Shown here: positions 27,640-64,000 of the stretch, one piece after another
Numbering within the stretch: the first letter of the stretch is position 1
Layout of the letters: every line of letters starts with the position of its first letter
Source of the DNA: Catenaria anguillulae PL171
Taxonomy: Eukaryota > Blastocladiomycota > Blastocladiomycetes > Blastocladiales > Catenariaceae
Direction: 5' to 3'
Length of the DNA: 64,000 bases
NCBI GenBank assembly: GCA_002102555.1
Contig: MCFL01000033.1
Location: 247,790 to 311,789 of the forward strand
Position numbers and translations under genes: made by a program
Notes under the pieces: model-generated
The model's database searches: none
Seen by the model: the letters and a program-made list of their open reading frames with translations, nothing else
Told to the model about the DNA's origin: nothing

Positions 27640-27965
27640 GCTGGCCCATGCCCCGCAGCACACGCGCGCTTCACACGCAAGGGCACGGGGCACCCCGCCT
27701 CGTTGGTCCGCGATCCATTTGGTATGACTGACAAGGACGCGCTGGCATAGTTTCGCATCGCCTTGGCCATGCAGAACGTCAGAACCCGAGGAAAACTACC
27801 ATTCTTTTCCCGCATCCGAACGCCGACGACCTGACTGCCCTCATGAGGCATGGTCGGGTGTCCCAAGACTACATCAAGACGGCTATCGACCCCATGATCG
27901 AGCACAAGTTGATTACCCCGGCTGACTTGGAAATGGAGAGGAGTTTGCCCTCATTGACGCCTTGA
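27640..27965 (+). pseudogene. Dead copy of the lineage-specific gene found at 30.4-32.1 kb
   Basis: This stretch aligns by eye with about 30780-31015. It has ASLVRDPFGMTDKDALA then a TAG stop where the intact gene has ASSLRDPFGMIDNDALVK; FRIALAMQN against FRIALAMQD; and, after a short deletion that shifts the frame, ALMRHGRVSQDYIKTAIDPM against ALMRHGRVSQNYIKTVIDPM. Just upstream, ARFTRKGTG resembles RRFTRKGIG of the gene at 28377. The copy therefore looks mosaic. The in-frame stop at about 27750 and the small deletion make it non-coding today. Confidence 0.7.
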
Positions 27966-30392: not shown

Positions 30393-30662
30393 ATGTGGTT
30401 CACGCGTTTCGCGTTCCCACATTCGCTCAAGGTCAAGGGACGGATCGAGGTGCCAGGTCAGTTCTCGATCCGAGCTTTGGTAGCCAACGGCAAGGACCGT
30501 ATTGCGACTTATCCATCCACGAGAAAAAGACACGAGGGAGACACCGTCGACGATGCCGGCAATGTGAATAGCACCACGCTCGATGCAATCTACCCCACCA
30601 CCAAAGCGGAATCGATCTCGCCCTTGCCCCTCAAACACAGCGACTCTACTCTTGAATTTGCA

Positions 30663-32150
30663 ATGTCCAAAAAAAACGTCCCCATCGTGCTTCCGACGCC
30701 AGTCCCTCACTCGACCACACGGACACGGGCTCTACCCCCACGCCCGCGCTTTGCAGCCGTTCCGCGCCGGCCTGCGCGACCTTCTGACCCACCCGCCTCG
30801 TCGCTCCGCGACCCCTTTGGCATGATTGACAACGACGCGCTGGTCAAGTTTCGCATCGCCTTGGCCATGCAGGACGTGATGACCCTCGCCAACCCGGGGA
30901 AAACCACCCTTATTTTCCCTCATCCGAACGCCGACGACCCGTCGGCCCTCATGAGGCATGGTCGGGTGTCCCAAAATTACATCAAGACGGTGATCGACCC
31001 TATGATCGAGCAGTTTAAGCAAATGATGCACATCTCGGTCACCACGGTGCTGGTCTCGGCAACCCCGTCTGGGCCGCCCCATCTGGTCATTCAACCCGCC
31101 AACGGCCCAAGCTCGGCGACCCTCCGAGTCATTCTATGCAATCCGTCTTTTCTCGGTCCTGTGACACCGCAAATGATGGCGAGACTCGACGATCCAGATT
31201 GGAACGCATGCAAGGCACAGTGCATCGCGATTCACGCGCGGTGGGCGCGCAACTTGCGGGTGTCGCAGATGGCGTGGACCCTGCAGCCATTCGTCCAGAT
31301 TGTGGGTGCGACATCTCGGTTCGATTTGCTGTCGAATGATCAGATGACTAATGCCGAGTCCGCATCAACCCGCATGGTTCTTGATGGCAAAAATGCGCAT
31401 GATTCTGGACAGGACGAGCGGCAAGCGCAGTCTATGCCCACCCAACCACCCACCAATGTGGCATCTTCTGCAGCCTCGGCTCAGGACAATTCTATTCCAG
31501 TCGAGTTGCGCCGGTCGAAGAGTCTACCTCTTGTTCACTGTGTTCCTTCCACAATCACTTCGTACATTGACCCCAAGCAACTCGTGTTGGCAAGCCCTCT
31601 GCGCCAACCGCTTGCCGAGCTCGAGGACAACAAACACACGCCCAACCTTTTCAAATCCCATGTCTCTCTTGTCCATACCATCGCCGGACATGGTCACGAC
31701 CACCTTGCTGCCCGCCGTGAACAAAGCTCTCAACCGACGGCTGTTCCGTTGACTCGACGAACAACGGCGCCGATTCCGCTTGCGCCAAGCGACGCCCTTA
31801 CGCGATTCGAAGCACAAGTCAAGAATTGGGATGGCGGACGAAGGCACCAAGACCACACCAAACCGATTGCCGGTGCGAATCAAGGGCAAAAGAAGGACCA
31901 TACCGACGCTGGTACCCATCAAGCGGGCCTGCTGCAAGTTTTGGGCCCGTACGTGGCCAGTCGCACCGAGGGCACAAGCGAGGATGCGGACTTGGACCGG
32001 TCGGACAAGCGACCATGGTTCACCCGCCGTCATACCGATCCGGTTGTTGGAAAGGGGACAGACAAAAAGCAGTGGTTTGGGGAGGCTCTGGGCGAGCAAG
32101 CGCCGCGCCGGTCGAATTCATGCGTAGGACCGCGAGCGAGCGCTGTGTGA
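30663..32150 (+). CDS. Hypothetical ~495-residue protein of a local gene family
   Basis: The frame is open from 30393, but the Met at 30663 (MSKKNVPIVLP) gives a more natural start because the 90 residues before it are compositionally odd. A basic/Pro-rich N-terminus leads to SLRDPFGMIDNDALVKFRIA, then KTTLIFPHPNADDPSALMRH, IDPMIEQFKQMMHISVTTVL, LVSATPSGPPHLVIQPANGP, LGPVTPQMMARLDDPDWNAC and QMAWTLQPFVQIVGATSRFD. This middle ~200 residues looks globular. The second half is disordered, with repeated short basic/Ser/Thr stretches. I do not recognise the family. A decayed partial copy lies at 27640-27965. Confidence 0.55.
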   Translation: MSKKNVPIVLPTPVPHSTTRTRALPPRPRFAAVPRRPARPSDPPASSLRDPFGMIDNDALVKFRIALAMQDVMTLANPGKTTLIFPHPNADDPSALMRHGRVSQNYIKTVIDPMIEQFKQMMHISVTTVLVSATPSGPPHLVIQPANGPSSATLRVILCNPSFLGPVTPQMMARLDDPDWNACKAQCIAIHARWARNLRVSQMAWTLQPFVQIVGATSRFDLLSNDQMTNAESASTRMVLDGKNAHDSGQDERQAQSMPTQPPTNVASSAASAQDNSIPVELRRSKSLPLVHCVPSTITSYIDPKQLVLASPLRQPLAELEDNKHTPNLFKSHVSLVHTIAGHGHDHLAARREQSSQPTAVPLTRRTTAPIPLAPSDALTRFEAQVKNWDGGRRHQDHTKPIAGANQGQKKDHTDAGTHQAGLLQVLGPYVASRTEGTSEDADLDRSDKRPWFTRRHTDPVVGKGTDKKQWFGEALGEQAPRRSNSCVGPRASAV

Positions 32151-33947: not shown

Positions 33948-34398
33948 TTGACGATAATGATCTCTCCAACGAAAATGGCCGACGACTCGGACCTGCTCCA
34001 AATCGCATGCCATCTGCCCTTGCCTCTGTCTCCATCTCTTGTTCCACTTCAGCAACCAGAACCAGAACCTGAACCTGAACCTGAACCAGAACAAGAGTAC
34101 CGCGTCAAGGAAATCCTCTTTGCAGACGCCCATCTCTTCCCTCCGTCCCGCACTCCCTCCTCGAATGGTGGCCATGCTGCGGACCGTGACAAGCGCACGC
34201 GCATCCTCATGCAAAACGCCAATGGCCCATGTCCGCTCTTGGCCATTGCCAACATCCTCGCCCTGCGCGGCCGCCTCGTCATCCCGCTCGGCGAACCCAC
34301 CGTCTCGTACTCGTTTCTCGCCCACCGCCTCGGCGAGTATCTTCTCTCATCATCCTCAACGTCTCCACCCGCGTCGCCCACGCTTGATACAGCCGCCG

Positions 34399-34450
<52 letters not shown>

Positions 34451-35524
34451 GGCATCATCCCCGCGCACATCCAAACTCGACCTTACTCTATCCCTCCTCC
34501 CAACCCTCCAACACGGCCTCACCATCAACCCATGCTTTGACCACGTCACCTCCATCGACACCTCCACCCCGACCTCGCCCGCCCCTTCACTTTTTGCTGC
34601 CTTCCACATCCCGCTCGTTCACGCCTGGACCTGCGACCCGCAAGACACGCTCGCCTGGTCCGTGCTGGGCCCCGAGGGGCCCGGCCGCTCCTTCAACCAC
34701 GCGTCCGTCTTGGCACTCGCCGATCCGCCCACACACGCCAGCGAAATAGCTCGCGAGTGGCTCGAATCGACCCGCGGGCAGATCACGGTGCACGGGCTCG
34801 TGACGCTCGCATCGGCCGTGGACAACGGGTTGTATGCGCTGTTTAGAAACAACCATTTTCATGTCATGTACAAGCGCGGGCACGGTGAGGTGTACACGTT
34901 GGTCACGGACGAAGGGTATACGGAGGTGCAGGATGTTGTGTGGGAAAAGGTCGAGGGGGTCGATGGCGAGTCGAAACTGTGTACAGGTGACTTTTCAGAG
35001 TGGGATCCAAACAAGAAGCCACGCAAGGTGGATGAGCATGTGCCCGTGGGTATGATGTTGGGTGTGGGCCATGGGTTTGGGAGCACAAGGCATGTGGATG
35101 CTGGATCCATGGTCGGGACCGTGTCGTCGAGGTCTGGGACTGCGGGCACAGATGTGTATTTGCCCAATCAGCCACCACTACCGGCAGGTTTCGAGTCGGA
35201 GCAGGAACGTGCTGATCGAGAGTACGTATTTATCACTTCAATCCGTCCATTTGGGTCATCGCTCATTCCGCTTTACCTTCCAACAGATATGCTCTCGCCC
35301 TTCAGCAAGCCGAAGACGCAGCCGCCACGCTCCCCGTTTCGTCACCAACCGCCGTGTCGTCCTCGTCGGCGGCCGCGCCTCCCTCGCGTCGCCCATCGGC
35401 CAATCCTGGCGCCAGGGTTCCGCAACAATCGGCGCCCGTGTATGTGGATCCGAGCGAGGCAGTGGGGCAAAATGCCGGGCACAAGAAGAAGGACGGCAAG
35501 GCAAAAGATTGCCTGGTCATGTGA
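33948..35524 (+). CDS. MINDY-family K48-linkage deubiquitinase with C-terminal CaaX box
   Basis: Cysteine protease that trims K48-linked polyubiquitin. The catalytic Cys lies in MQNANGPCPLLAIANILALR and the catalytic His in LFRNNHFHVMYKRGHGEVYT; the acidic EVQDVVWEKV follows as in MINDY-1/2. A Glu/Pro repeat (QPEPEPEPEPEPEQE) precedes the domain. A Ser tract encoded by a TCA repeat (34400-34450) is inserted between the Cys and His blocks. After an intron (about 35221-35286, acceptor CAACAG) the tail reads EYALALQQAEDAAATLPVSS, which looks like a MIU ubiquitin-binding helix, and the protein ends DCLVM. Cys-Leu-Val-Met fits a CaaX prenylation site, suggesting membrane attachment. Start choice among Met at 33948, 33957 and 33975 is open. 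Confidence 0.9.
34398..34452 (+). repeat. Trinucleotide (TCA/ATC) repeat coding polyserine
   Basis: About 17 consecutive TCA codons lie within the MINDY gene. The tract codes a flexible polyserine loop between catalytic blocks. Confidence 0.9.
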
Positions 35525-36001
35525 TTTTCAAGGGAGACTCGGTTGGTGTACATTTTGTTGTTTCGCGGAGGCGTTGGTTCACGCCTTATTCTCTCTTGAT
35601 TTGGTTGTCAGTGTACCCGTGCATGTAAATTCCGGACTGTCTTTCGTAGTTTTCGTCCCCCTCCTCGGTATTCCGCCAGCATCGATGGCACATCGATTGC
35701 TCTCGTGGCGTCGCTTTCACGGGCTCAGTGTCACCAGCCCGCAATGCTATCATGGTGATGATATTTACCGTGAAACCATGGAATCAAACCCAGGCCAACT
35801 CGCAGCAACAGCAACGGGAACCCACACCGACATTGAACCCAACTTTACCCCTCGTCCCCAACGTATGTCTCCTTCCGCCGTTCAACGCCAACACCTCGTT
35901 GTCTGGCAGCGATCGGTGACCGGCAGCCCCACATCCGCAGCTCTTTACTAACTCACGGGCACGGCCCATGCCCCCCCACCGTCCGCCACAGCCAACAAAC
36001 A
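35525..36001. other. Intergenic
   Basis: 3' flank of the MINDY gene and promoter of the M20 gene. No domain is seen in any frame. Confidence 0.6.
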
Positions 36002-40160: not shown

Positions 40161-42151
40161 TCACGCAATGTACAGCACATCGCTGTCATTGTCCTTCTTG
40201 ACAACCCGACCTGGTGCATCACCGAGGTACAGTGTCTCATCGTCTGCAACCCCCGCCGAGCGTACTTGGCGGCCAGCAGGCACAATCGCGTTGTGATCCT
40301 TGGACAGGGATTGGTCGACAGGCGGCAAGTGAACGAGACCTTGCGATGGCAACGTGGATTCGACGGACTTTTGCAAACCGGGCTTGGTTGCTTCTGGCTG
40401 TGTCAACGACAAATCAACCATGGTCGCTGCTGAGTTTGATGGCGATTCCGAGTTGTTGGACGACTGGGACGCCCTGCGGCGAAGCCAGAAACAACCGACA
40501 AAGACAATGAGGGTAACCACAAACACCGCAGCGATGATGCCAAAAACTGCAGCAAGAGGGAGGCCAGAAGTGGTGGGCAATGGCTCGGGCGGAGCGGTTG
40601 GGCTGGGGGCAACAGGCACGGGGCAATCCGGAATGGAAAATTGCTTTAAGTTGTCGAAGCATTTGCCTGTCTTGTTAAACGACGGCGCGAGGCAGAGCTT
40701 GCTGTTGCTGTTGCTGGATGCCGAGGTAATAATGGAACAATTGGTGCTACAAGAAGAACAATTGAAGTCCGTGAATAGTCCGAAAAAAGCCCAGATCAGA
40801 CAAATGCGCACAAACCCGACAAAGGGCAAACTGACGATTGGGCCAGAGAGCTGGTTGTTGTACAGGTACCTGGCAAATGCATTTCATCCACCCGGGTTAC
40901 TAGAGTCAGTGATTGGGTTGGGTGTGAAAAGTAGGTCAGTCAAGTTTGCAACGGACAAGTAACTAAGCTTGGGGAGCTTGCCCAAATCTGCTGGAATGGG
41001 GCCAGAGAGCTGGTTGTCAGACAGGTACCTGGCAAATGCATTTCATCCGCCCGGGTTACTAGAGTCAGTGATTGGGTTGGGTGTGAAAAGTAGGTAAGTC
41101 AAGTTTGCAACGCACAATGATTGAAGGCTGGAGAGCTTGCCCAAATCAGCTGGAATGGGGCCAGAAAGCTGGTTGTATTGCAGCCACCTGGCAAATGCAT
41201 TTCATCCGCCCGGGGTACGAGAGTCAGTGATTGGGTTGGGTGTGACAAGTAGGTAAGTCAAGTTTGCAACGCACAATAGTTCAAGGTTGGGGAGCTTGCC
41301 CAAATCAGCTGGAATGGGGCCAGAAAGCTGGTTGTCAGACAGGTACCTGGCAAATGCATTTCATCCACCCGGGTTACTAGAGTCAGTGATTGGGTTGGGT
41401 GTGACAAGTAGGTAAGTCAAGTTTGCAACGGACAAGTAACGAAGGTTGGGGAGCTTGCCCAAATCAGCTGGAATGGGGCCAGAGAGCTGGTTGTTGTACA
41501 GGTACCTGGCAAATGCATTTCATCCGCCCGGGTTACTAGAGTCAGTGATTGGGTTGGGTGTGACAAGTAGGTAAGTCAAGTTTGCAACGGACAAGTAACG
41601 AAGGTTGGGGAGCTTGCCCAAATCTGCTGGAATGGGGCCAGAGAGCTGGTTGTTGTACAGGTACCTGGCAAATGCATTTCATCCGCCCGGGTTACTAGAG
41701 TCAGTGATTGGGTTGGGTGTGACAAGTAGGTAAGTCAAGTTTGCAACGGACAAGTAACGAAGGTTGGGGAGCTTGCCCAACTCAGCTGGAATGCGGCCGG
41801 AAAGCCGGTTGCCAGACAGGTCCCTGGCAAATGCATTTCATCCGCCCGGGTTACTAGAGTCAGTGAACGTTTGTTGAACAAATCTGCTGGGGGCAGGTCT
41901 GCGTACAATGTAGTGACACGGCCACTTGAGCACTCAACTTGTTGCCAATTACAGCATGATGTTCCGTTGCGGTTCAAGTTGAATGTTTGGAATATTGAGT
42001 CAAGAGTGTTGCATTCGTCAGCGGACATGGTGAGCGTGGGCGAAGTCGCTGAGTTGAAGGTGAGCAGGAGCTGAATGGGCGTTGATGTTGAACAGCGACA
42101 AAAGTGAGACACGGGGGTTGCTTCCAGAGATGATACAGAGAGGTGGGGCAA
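40161..42151 (-). CDS. Receptor-like transmembrane LRR protein encoded by a tandem exon-intron array
   Basis: The N-terminal exon (Met at 42151 or later) carries an LRR cap: DECNTLDSIFQTFNLNRNGT then SCCNWQQVECSSGRVTTLYA and DLPPAD. Each following exon codes exactly one plant-type 24-residue LRR of the form YLYNNQLSGPIPADLGKLPN plus LRYL. Introns are phase 2, begin GTCCG or GTGCG, end TTTGCCAG and are 87 nt long. Seven intron copies occur, giving six full LRRs and one partial. The last LRR runs into a Cys-rich stretch (FNCSSCSTNCSIITS), then Ser/Pro/Thr, a membrane helix (AVFGIIAAVFVVTLIVFVGC) and FWLRRR, with a cytosolic tail ending DSDVLYIA at 40161. No kinase domain is present. The signal peptide is unclear; a hydrophobic stretch IQLLLTFNSATSPTL precedes the cap. 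Likely a surface recognition or adhesion protein. Confidence 0.8.
40862..41870 (-). repeat. 159-bp tandem repeat: one LRR exon (72 bp) plus one intron (87 bp) per unit
   Basis: The anchor TAGAGTCAGT occurs at 40901, 41060, 41219 (one base changed), 41378, 41537, 41696 and 41855, an exact 159-bp period. Units differ by only a few substitutions and both exon and intron parts are conserved. Retention of one intron would keep frame length (87 = 3 x 29) but adds an in-frame TGA. Confidence 0.97.
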
Positions 42152-42708
42152 AAAGTATCCTGCTGTCCTTCATGGCGGGTGCCAGGCACCTTTTATGTGG
42201 CCCTGTCGCTTCTGCGCAGGCTTCCGCCATTGCATGTCACAGATCACCGAGTTGCCCACATGGGTCAGGGGAAATGATGAAACAAGACAACGAGCAAATG
42301 TTCGACAGTCGCCTCTCGCTATTGGCTGAACAACGTGCATGCGGATGCGTTTGGCCCACTAGCTTTCGACGAGCGCCACCCGCCACGTTGTGGCTGCAGG
42401 ACATGCGAAGCTATAGCGTTTCTTTATGTATTTATTGTTGTGTGAGACAAGTGATGTTGAGTAGACGCGTCGCAGGCTGTTGGCTGTCTCACCTTTCCCA
42501 TCCCTTCTCTCCATGTGTGTATAGATTGCCCTGTATAGTATGGGTATAGGACCTCCGGCGAGACCCCCTACACCCCTCTCTCCTGCACCTCTAATCCAGT
42601 GCCAGGCCAATTATATAATCTGTTCCAGCAGACCCTCCCGCATCTACATTTTCTTCTACTAGTTTCGCCGTCCTCGCTTCACTATGTGCCTGTTCCCCTC
42701 CTCTCATC
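42152..42708. other. Region between LRR gene and retroelement remnant
   Basis: This should hold the LRR gene promoter on its left. Its right part, near the pyrimidine-rich sequence at 42540-42670, could be leader sequence of the element. I could not identify an LTR or a primer-binding site. Confidence 0.4.
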
Positions 42709-61090: not shown

Positions 61091-61982
61091 TCACCTTGTT
61101 GAAATGTTGAAATCTGTCTGTTTGTCGTTTCCTCTTTGTACTAATACACTCACACTCTGTAGTCACAAGCCGTGGACAAAGTGCAGTAAAGGAGAATTGA
61201 TCTGGGATCCAGTGGCACAATCATCGAGCCATCAAAGCTTACAATGTCGACCGCAAAGCATGATACTCACCCTGCCTCAACGCCCATACCGTCGACCCTT
61301 GCGACTCGGCATTCCTCAAATCCAAATGGTCGACATGATTGACCGTTACGTACACCAACCCGAAATGGCTCGACACCTTGGCAAGGTCGCTTGACGGGAC
61401 GGCATCACTCGTTTTTGAATCCAAGTACGTCTGCTTGGCTGCTGGCGATTGTACAGCCCACATGCGCTCACGGACTTGCTGCCAGTTGACCTTGCTCGAA
61501 GTTGCCGTCGAAACTGTCGAAGCGTTTCCATCGACCACCACACCAACACCGGACAGTCGAAACTGCTCGCGCGAATGCGAAAAGTACCAGCACACCTCGA
61601 CCAGTGGATTGTCCTTGATTTCCGTCACCTTGCGGGTCCGCAAATCGGTCACAAACAGTAAATGGACAAGCTCATCTTGAGCCGCAGCTACCGAATGCGG
61701 CGATGTCTTGATCCAATCATCGGCAAAGTGCGCAGTCCCATTGGCAACGAGACCACGAAATACGACAGTGCGGACTCGGGGTGCCCACGACGGCGATTGA
61801 AGAGGCGATGCTGGGGTGGAGATTGTCCCGCAGGTTGCGAGCTGAACGTATTTGACTGGATGACCCAGGACTGCAAAGTTGCTGGCCAGGGAAGCGTGAA
61901 GACGGTCGATCCAGCGGTGGGCGGACATGGTGGACATGGTGGACATGGTGGACATGGTGGACATGGTGGACATGGTGGACAT
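61091..61982 (-). CDS. Pyridoxamine-phosphate-oxidase-like flavoprotein (Alr4036 type)
   Basis: The N-terminus is MSTMSTMST repeated from a 9-bp unit, then SAHRWIDRLHASLASNF. The FMN-binding split-barrel has YVQLATCGTISTPASPLQ, RVRTVVFRGLVANGTAHF, LLFVTDLRTRKVTEIKDNPL and VEVCWYFSHSREQFRLSGVG; the Arg-Thr-Val-Val-Phe-Arg-Gly and Glu-Val-Cys-Trp-Tyr-Phe blocks are typical of the PPOX family related to Alr4036. Later NWQQVRERMWAVQSPAAKQT matches the region before the dimer contact. The frame stops at 61239, but CAG|GTGAGTAT at about 61277 is a good donor, and a last exon from about 61155 would end at 61091 with SVSVLVQRGNDKQ. Substrate unknown; homologues may oxidise pyridoxamine phosphate or bind other cofactors. 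Confidence 0.75.
61923..61982 (-). repeat. 9-bp tandem repeat at the translation start (ATGTCCACC units)
   Basis: Six identical ATGTCCACC units plus a variant ATGTCCGCC lie head to tail, each supplying an in-frame ATG. They code Met-Ser-Thr repeats at the start of the PPOX-like gene. Confidence 0.97.
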
Positions 61983-62246
61983 GGAGCAGAGCCTGGGAAC
62001 GTTAGACGGAAGCTGACGGCGCTGTATTGCTTTGGCTTAATTGGTTTATACGGTTGTTGCGTGCACAGTAAAGAGTTTGACAAGTTTTGGTTGATGCAAC
62101 GTCTCGGTCCGTCGCGGATTGCGACAGGCGGAACGTCGGCCGTGCTTCACAAAGCGATGCGCTGTCCTTCCACAACCGAGGAAAGGACACAAAATCTGAC
62201 AGTGGACTCAGAAAAACAACAACAAGAATCACGTGCAACCATTCAT

Positions 62247-63220: not shown

Positions 63221-64000
63221 TGCGATGGGTTAGCTATTGCCTCGGTGCTGATTCAGAGCGACGGAGTGTCGTCGTAGTTGAGTTGATTAGCAGAAGCAGA
63301 GCAGCAGCAGATCGACGGCTCCTTCTAGTTCCGCAAGTACGTGAATGCAGACTAGCGCGACCCGCCGGCGTTGCCCGGCCACATCAGCTTGAAAGATCGG
63401 GGTGAAGGTGACTGTTCCAACGTGGCCGTCTCCGACTCGAGTCAGTCAAGGAGCACCCCCAACGGATTCCCAGACAGATTGATGCTCCATTGCAAGTGAA
63501 AGTTGTACATTGACAGACACCCCATTGGGAAGGATGGTAAATTAGTCCCACAGCAAGAAACACATGAATGGAAGTGGAACAGATATTGGCAGATACATGG
63601 ACAACGAAACCAACATCAATCTGCATACTTCCACAACCGTCTTGTCATCCATTCATGCCTGCGACCGATAAACAGGCTCACCACCTGCTCTTGCGTCGAC
63701 CCTGCAAACTCTCTTGTACCACCAACGTATTTCTCTGAAAACTGGCCAACACTCATCCAGCACGCTCATCACACATTCCAGTTACCGAACAGCAGCGCCT
63801 GACCCAACGCATCCCGCGTGTCCTACAGGTCCCAATGATTCCGCGCCCGTGTCACCCACCAACTGGCGTTGCGTATCCAGTGCATCCCAGTGCGACCCAA
63901 CCATCCCACGTATCGCGCGGATCGCGCAAGCATTCCCGTATTCAAGCGCGACCCGTGCAGCCCGTACAACCCGTGGTCCGTGTATTGACCGCCTCGCAGC
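63221..64000. other. No supported gene
   Basis: On the minus strand a frame at 63384-63626 has CQCTTFTCNGASICLGIRWG and another nearby has SINLSGNPLGVLLD, both faintly LRR-like, but no exon chain holds together. A CGCATCCCG/CGACCC-rich stretch fills 63800-64000. Partial genes at the right edge cannot be excluded. Confidence 0.35.

Follow-up and report, generated by a model that had tools for sequence, protein, structure and literature searches.

Diversity in the repeated gene described here peaks in the codons on the concave face of its repeats, where it is ~20 times that of the adjoining introns. The gene lies on the minus strand of a 64,000-nt stretch of Catenaria anguillulae PL171 DNA (the window; contig MCFL01000033.1, here C257), and it appears to encode a surface receptor built of near-identical exon-plus-intron blocks. 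The explanation that we consider likely is that unequal exchange between these blocks changes the length of the array and keeps it homogeneous, with selection acting to diversify the binding face, and that this takes place in a plant-type LRR receptor-like gene. Such an array design looks like a simple route to ever-new recognition surfaces, and the sequence points to a candidate cell-surface recognition gene in an early-diverging fungus.

A tandem array of LRR exons and phase-2 introns

Six 72-nt exons alternate with 87-nt introns on the minus strand at 40816-41906 and are followed by a shorter cap exon (Table 1). Each 72-nt exon encodes one 24-residue LRR and is in phase 2 at both ends, and together with one 87-nt GT...AG intron it makes up the repeat unit. 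The acceptor TTTGCCAG occurs seven times at an exact 159-nt spacing, and TRF reported a 159-nt period at 40840-41866 (score 1723, 92% matches, 0% indels), by far the strongest of its nine rows for the window. These results bear out two statements of an earlier sequence-only reading of this DNA, namely that there are seven anchor copies at a strict 159-bp spacing and that the duplicated unit is one 72-bp exon plus one 87-bp phase-2 intron; a correction is that the array comprises six full LRR exons and a C-cap exon that is LRR-like only at its start.

Intron 0 (83 nt, with the donor GTACGC at 41906) matches array intron 1 exactly over its last 43 nt, which places the unit boundary inside an intron. 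The same reading was therefore right that the first intron shares its 3' end with the others and that the breakpoint falls within it, but wrong as to its 5' end, which is GTACGC and not GTTCAACAAAC, a sequence internal to intron 0. We rejected GTTCAACAAAC as the donor because it disagrees with both the LRR consensus and the deposited protein, and a later candidate donor, GTCACA, because it is in the wrong phase for the next exon; splicing at GTACGC joins RVTTL to DLSGN, as in the deposited protein. Retention of any of the six array introns (six of the eight introns) brings in a stop inside that intron, so that the claim that any retained intron adds a TGA holds for these six; it fails for intron 0, the retention of which shifts the frame and leads to a later stop, and for the last intron, which when retained is open and in frame. 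A protein read through the array without splicing was also rejected, given the stop in each of the six array introns and the indels in the introns of a second copy of the array (on a contig here called C433). Rfam gave 0 matches at gathering score in the window, and hence no RNA family in the introns, and no tRNA was found in the window.

Table 1. Exons and introns of the gene copy in the window, in the order of transcription.
Feature	Position in the window	Strand	Description
N-cap exon	41907..42028	-	122 nt, MSADEC...RVTTL, ends in phase 2; deposited model P0001 starts here
Intron 0	41824..41906	-	83 nt, GTACGC...TTTGCCAG
LRR exon 1	41752..41823	-	72 nt, DLSGNRLSGRIPAELGKLPNLRY
Array intron 1	41665..41751	-	87 nt
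LRR exon 2	41593..41664	-	72 nt
Array intron 2	41506..41592	-	87 nt, identical to array intron 1
LRR exon 3	41434..41505	-	72 nt, 1 nt different from exon 2
Array intron 3	41347..41433	-	87 nt
LRR exon 4	41275..41346	-	72 nt
Array intron 4	41188..41274	-	87 nt
LRR exon 5	41116..41187	-	72 nt
Array intron 5	41029..41115	-	87 nt
LRR exon 6	40957..41028	-	72 nt
Array intron 6	40870..40956	-	87 nt
C-cap exon	40816..40869	-	54 nt; LRR-like at its start, with SLPFV after it; assigned by comparison with the C433 copy and the paralogs
Last intron	40747..40815	-	69 nt, GTTTGT...TTGTAG; homologous position in C433 and the paralogs by eye
Last exon	40161..40746	-	586 nt: Cys-containing cap, transmembrane stretch, short kinase-less tail, stop

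Deposited models and the predicted protein

A protein search, in which the best 120 of 7,989 scored candidates were considered, identified two deposited C. anguillulae PL171 proteins, BCR44DRAFT_1437715 (P0001), which is the predicted product of the window copy, and BCR44DRAFT_1444112 (P0002), which is that of the copy on C433; a third protein, P0063, belongs to one of the two paralogs described below. P0001 and P0002 agree with the array splice sites and contain all full array exons in order; the cap exon (40816..40869) is skipped in P0001 and kept in P0002. At 40747-40869, the window copy has GG, not AG, ahead of the donor, and its last intron (69 nt) is open and in frame. The deposited models start at MSADEC, and no signal peptide was found; upstream (42029-42208) the frame is open for some 48 codons and has no in-frame ATG before a stop. 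A run of hydrophobic residues occurs there in the window copy, with a stronger run, by eye, in the second of the two paralogs, so that a signal peptide may be spliced on or have been missed.

The repeats follow the 24-residue plant-type pattern LxxLxxLxLxxNxLxGxIP, and Pfam LRR_1, LRR_4 and LRR_8 matched above their cut-offs. Pfam matches with E up to 1 were to LRR families only, with no kinase domain (the tail is short) and no NB-ARC or NACHT domain found among them, and on this result we ruled out both a kinase receptor and an NLR. The model predicted for P0002 (13 sequences, mean pLDDT 75, pTM 0.64) reaches block pLDDT 91-99 over residues 31-220 and shows a three-residue concave strand every 24 residues; it also has one long helix, 291-317 (block pLDDT 63-86), over the hydrophobic stretch. 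The introns split the codon of the central Leu of the concave strand; this Leu is the middle residue in 7/7 concave strands of the P0002 model, with the variable residues on both sides, and its position in the window copy is assigned by homology with that model. Foldseek and sequence searches placed the ectodomain among plant receptors such as MIK2, GSO1, FLS2, BRI1 and PGIP, and the best PDB relatives are likewise plant receptors. We read the gene as one of the plant-type LRR receptor-like kind, the product of which is probably a single-pass membrane protein.

A second copy of the array and two paralogs

The second array, at C433:14535-15696, has seven full LRR exons and a cap compared with six and a cap in the window, and its flanks are colinear with those of the window copy. 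All seven full exons are 72 nt, the length changes being confined to the introns (87 to 89 nt), and the acceptors are spaced by 159, 161, 160, 160, 161, 161 and 159 nt. The difference of one full unit comes from two copies in one assembly, and it supports the proposal of the sequence-only reading that copy number can change without breaking the frame. The colinear region comprises C433:1-36905 and window 25801-63351, with gaps and with 499 bases of C433 between two compared pieces left out; substitutions range from 0 to 11% per aligned kb, and about 29.6-32.0 kb of the window is without alignment. At C433:36906-50000 there was no match of ≥200 bases to the window, and C257 ends at window position 64000. 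Divergence from C433 is <2% at both ends of the overlap, 3–11% at 27.8-45.8 kb and 0–4% beyond; it is 9% in the array kilobase, although units there may be paired out of order. Between the two copies the N-cap exon differs at 4/123 nt and the last exon at 38/582 nt (dN 0.054, dS 0.112). The C433 copy is probably the other haplotype, the alternative being a duplicated segment. Several other LRR loci of the genome are also found as pairs, on different contigs and with similar scores (C436/C347, C165/C13, C402/C46 and C399/C60), which suggests that both haplotypes have been retained in parts of the assembly.

There are at least three loci of this kind in the genome, in searches that score the best candidates only. 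The two paralogs lie at C257:113.5-115.5 kb and 116.5-117.9 kb and likewise carry a single LRR in each exon. P0063, the first of them, has six exons of 72 nt and a seventh of 75 nt; the second, in which the splice sites were placed by eye, has five internal exons, four of 72 nt and one of 75 nt. Their introns (69–103 and 60–89 nt, respectively) are unalike. Intron pairs of P0063 are 0.40 identical (0.28 when shuffled) and its exon pairs 0.63 (21 pairs), and in the second paralog the values are 0.37 for introns (0.29 when shuffled, 15 pairs) and 0.53 for exons (10 pairs). As the paralogs share the exon plan and have unalike introns, the plan is older than the present array, and intron sequence is not generally held in the family; the sequences thus indicate that the present array was re-amplified or homogenised at a later time. 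This lends support to the recent expansion or homogenisation put forward in the sequence-only reading, and tandem duplication of an exon-plus-intron unit, its central proposal, is supported as well. When the last 198 residues of P0002 were used as the query, none of 1,285 candidates other than P0001 and P0002 reached E≤0.001; even P0063 was missed, and the search gives only a weak hint that relatives are absent elsewhere.

Diversity is concentrated in five codons of each exon

Within the six window units, 6/87 columns are variable in the introns compared with 23/72 in the exons. When the 13 full units of both copies were compared, the exon difference exceeded the intron difference in 78/78 unit pairs, with mean pair differences (gaps counted) of 15.6% for exons and 3.7% for introns. 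Mean pairwise dN was 0.187 and dS 0.152, compared with an intron distance of 0.029; dN was greater than the intron distance in 77/78 pairs and greater than dS in 56/78. The statement that the introns are almost as similar as the exons was thus inverted: the comparison of intron with exon divergence that had been proposed as a check shows that the introns are several times more alike, that the exons are the more divergent, and that the diversity lies in five concave codons.

These are the codons for the five x residues of the concave xxLxLxx (unit codons 23, 24, 2, 4 and 5), for which a contact role is suggested by their position in this motif. They have a pi of 0.528, with 14/15 columns variable, compared with 0.058 (11/57 columns) in the rest of the exon and 0.027 (8/89 columns) in the introns, and none of the other 23-codon positions is as diverse, so that of the 33,649 possible five-codon sets (from 23 codons) theirs ranks first. 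Fisher tests of variable columns gave p=5.5e-11 for the concave codons versus the introns, p=1.8e-7 for the concave codons versus the rest of the exon, p=0.08 (not significant) for the rest of the exon versus the introns, and p=0.017 for third positions outside the concave codons (6/19 vary) versus intron columns, all of these p values being optimistic as the sites are linked and not independent. The sample is one gene in two copies. Among 390 comparisons of concave codons, 214 of the 305 that differ do so at two or three bases. Because silent exon sites are more diverse than the introns, dN is above dS in no more than 56/78 pairs and the rest of the exon does not differ significantly from the introns, new mutation and selection since the common ancestor of the introns is not the whole story, and older variants kept via conversion, hitchhiking or multi-base changes are needed; silent exon diversity and multi-base codon differences together favour shuffled older variants over fresh point changes only.

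Exchange between units and the explanations considered

All four gametes were present in 76/153 pairs of informative two-state columns (indels included), i.e., in 2/17 pairs within 10 nt, 29/56 at 11–40 nt, 31/56 at 41–80 nt and 14/24 beyond, a pattern that can arise by recurrent mutation too. Distances in the 5' half-strand, the mid-exon and the 3' half-strand are uncorrelated. The 3' half-strand is correlated with the following intron (r=0.46, 5/5000 permutations), and linkage is therefore not absent; for the intron and the next 5' half-strand r is 0.20 (448/5000 permutations). Half-strand pairs across introns come in 12 distinct combinations in 13 positions, none of them common to both copies. 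Near-uniform introns next to diverse contact codons mean that homogenisation and a protection or creation of contact-codon differences are both needed. In the explanation that we favour, unequal crossing-over and gene conversion between units would change the length of the array and keep its units alike, selection for diversity at the ligand-contact residues would keep or create differences there, and exchange on either side of or within an intron would recombine strand halves into new surfaces; judging from the selection pattern, the protein would probably bind a variable marker, of self or non-self, at the cell surface. A more specific idea, about which we are doubtful, is that the intron acts as a recombination platform, exchange anywhere in the uniform 87-nt intron joining new left and right half-strands, always in frame. 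If this were true, the fungus would combine half-strands into new binding surfaces, generation by generation.

A possibility that we take seriously, if tentatively, is that the exon diversity is old and the introns young, ancient concave variants having been protected by selection while conversion tracts overwrote the introns and the conserved parts of the exons. This is a sub-variant of the favoured explanation, with which it is compatible, and it needs little new amino-acid change. The predominance of concave codons that differ at two or three bases fits it well, as do the diversity of silent exon sites relative to introns and the fact that P0063 carries some x residues identical to those of the array (EV, QS and YSD); however, exchange tracts would time and again have to stop no more than a few bases from an intron end, and copying of whole units is shown by the pairs B2/B5 (one difference in the exon, none in the intron) and A2/A3 (one in each). 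Plain recent tandem expansion without selection, in which the copies are alike as they are young and their variation is neutral, would yield the high overall similarity, the exact spacing, the frame-neutral unit and the copy-number difference. We nonetheless find it hardly credible, as neutral variation would not make nearly all concave columns variable and so few intron columns, and it is contradicted unless some mutation process is confined to the concave codons.

It is improbable that the introns are alike through functional constraint, be it splicing regulation or alternative or mutually exclusive exons, with exon skipping giving rise to isoforms. Symmetrical exons do permit skipping, and P0001 skips the cap exon, but the introns of the two paralogs are unalike in sequence and length, those of C433 contain indels, both deposited models include every full array exon, and the window has no Rfam family at gathering score. 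Lastly, the length of the array or its second copy might come from misassembled repeats, given that short repeats are error-prone and that C433 overlaps the end of contig C257; this we judge very improbable, since the two contigs have different unit sequences in which all full exons are 72 nt, and their flanks are colinear, with substitutions per aligned kb ranging from 0 to some 11%.

Comparison with known repeat arrays

Like the Catenaria array, the LRR genes of Tetrahymena contain a tandem series of equally long LRR exons separated by introns in phase 2. In the part of Xiong et al. (2019, PMC6564038) on which we draw, these exons are 90 bp (30 residues) and variable in unit number, unequal crossing-over is proposed and an association with retroelements described, and most species have >1000 LRR genes, mostly without a transmembrane domain and with purifying Ka/Ks for most; the authors suggest that exon-array LRR genes may have evolved only once. 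In contrast, the Catenaria exons are 72 nt, found at no fewer than three loci, with a transmembrane stretch and concave-face variation in the protein. Relative to the single origin suggested in that part of PMC6564038, the Catenaria gene is a further phase-2 LRR exon array outside Tetrahymena, in which both lineage and exon length differ.

The fungal recognition genes het-d and het-e (HNWD) of Podospora anserina have WD40 arrays that evolve in concert and change in repeat number, and four surface codons per repeat are under diversifying selection, as given in the parts of PMC1805685 and PMC2873952 used here. The Catenaria array resembles them in having uniform repeats and diversity concentrated in contact codons, contact in Catenaria being judged from the xxLxLxx position. 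HNWD proteins are, however, STAND proteins with WD40 repeats, for which the same parts of these two papers mention no intron per repeat, whereas in the Catenaria gene every repeat has its intron and the product is a membrane LRR protein. In such a protein the Catenaria gene would combine the exon-array mode of Tetrahymena with the selection mode of HNWD.

For coffee resistance genes, the part of PMC3113787 drawn on here describes positive selection acting on the x residues of xxLxLxx. The Catenaria protein shares the 24-residue plant-type LRR with plant LRR receptors and resistance genes but differs from them in lacking a kinase or nucleotide-binding domain and in having an intron in every repeat of its gene. 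Animal LGR receptors differ in being seven-transmembrane, and the part of PMC8286064 used here mentions no recently homogenised array in them. The zinc fingers of PRDM9, as portrayed in the portion of its literature that we used, likewise form an array of repeats in which contact positions are under positive selection; PRDM9 differs in being a DNA-binding protein with another function. We know of no intron per zinc finger in PRDM9.

A repeated intron of this kind is a built-in reference free of protein selection, only a few bases from the selected codons, and because it adjoins them diversifying selection becomes measurable inside one gene. A literature search by title and the start of the abstract gave no description of this gene or of such a recognition gene in an early-diverging fungus, a search on chytrid LRR receptors found nothing, and the phrase 'introns are more conserved' was absent among the matches listed.

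Further differences and repeats in the window

The stretch of the window that is unaligned in C433 (29563-32041) overlaps an ORF at 30393-32150, and within it 30792-31012 is a partial repeat of 27694-27904 at 85–89%; the unaligned stretch may be a gene copy present on one haplotype only. A perfect 9-nt repeat, with about 7 copies of GGACATGGT, lies at 61923-61984, and the kilobase that holds it has 36 gapped bases relative to C433, which would fit four 9-nt units. At 34399-34459 a (CAT)20 run lies within an ORF with a match to the MINDY deubiquitinase family (33948-35951).
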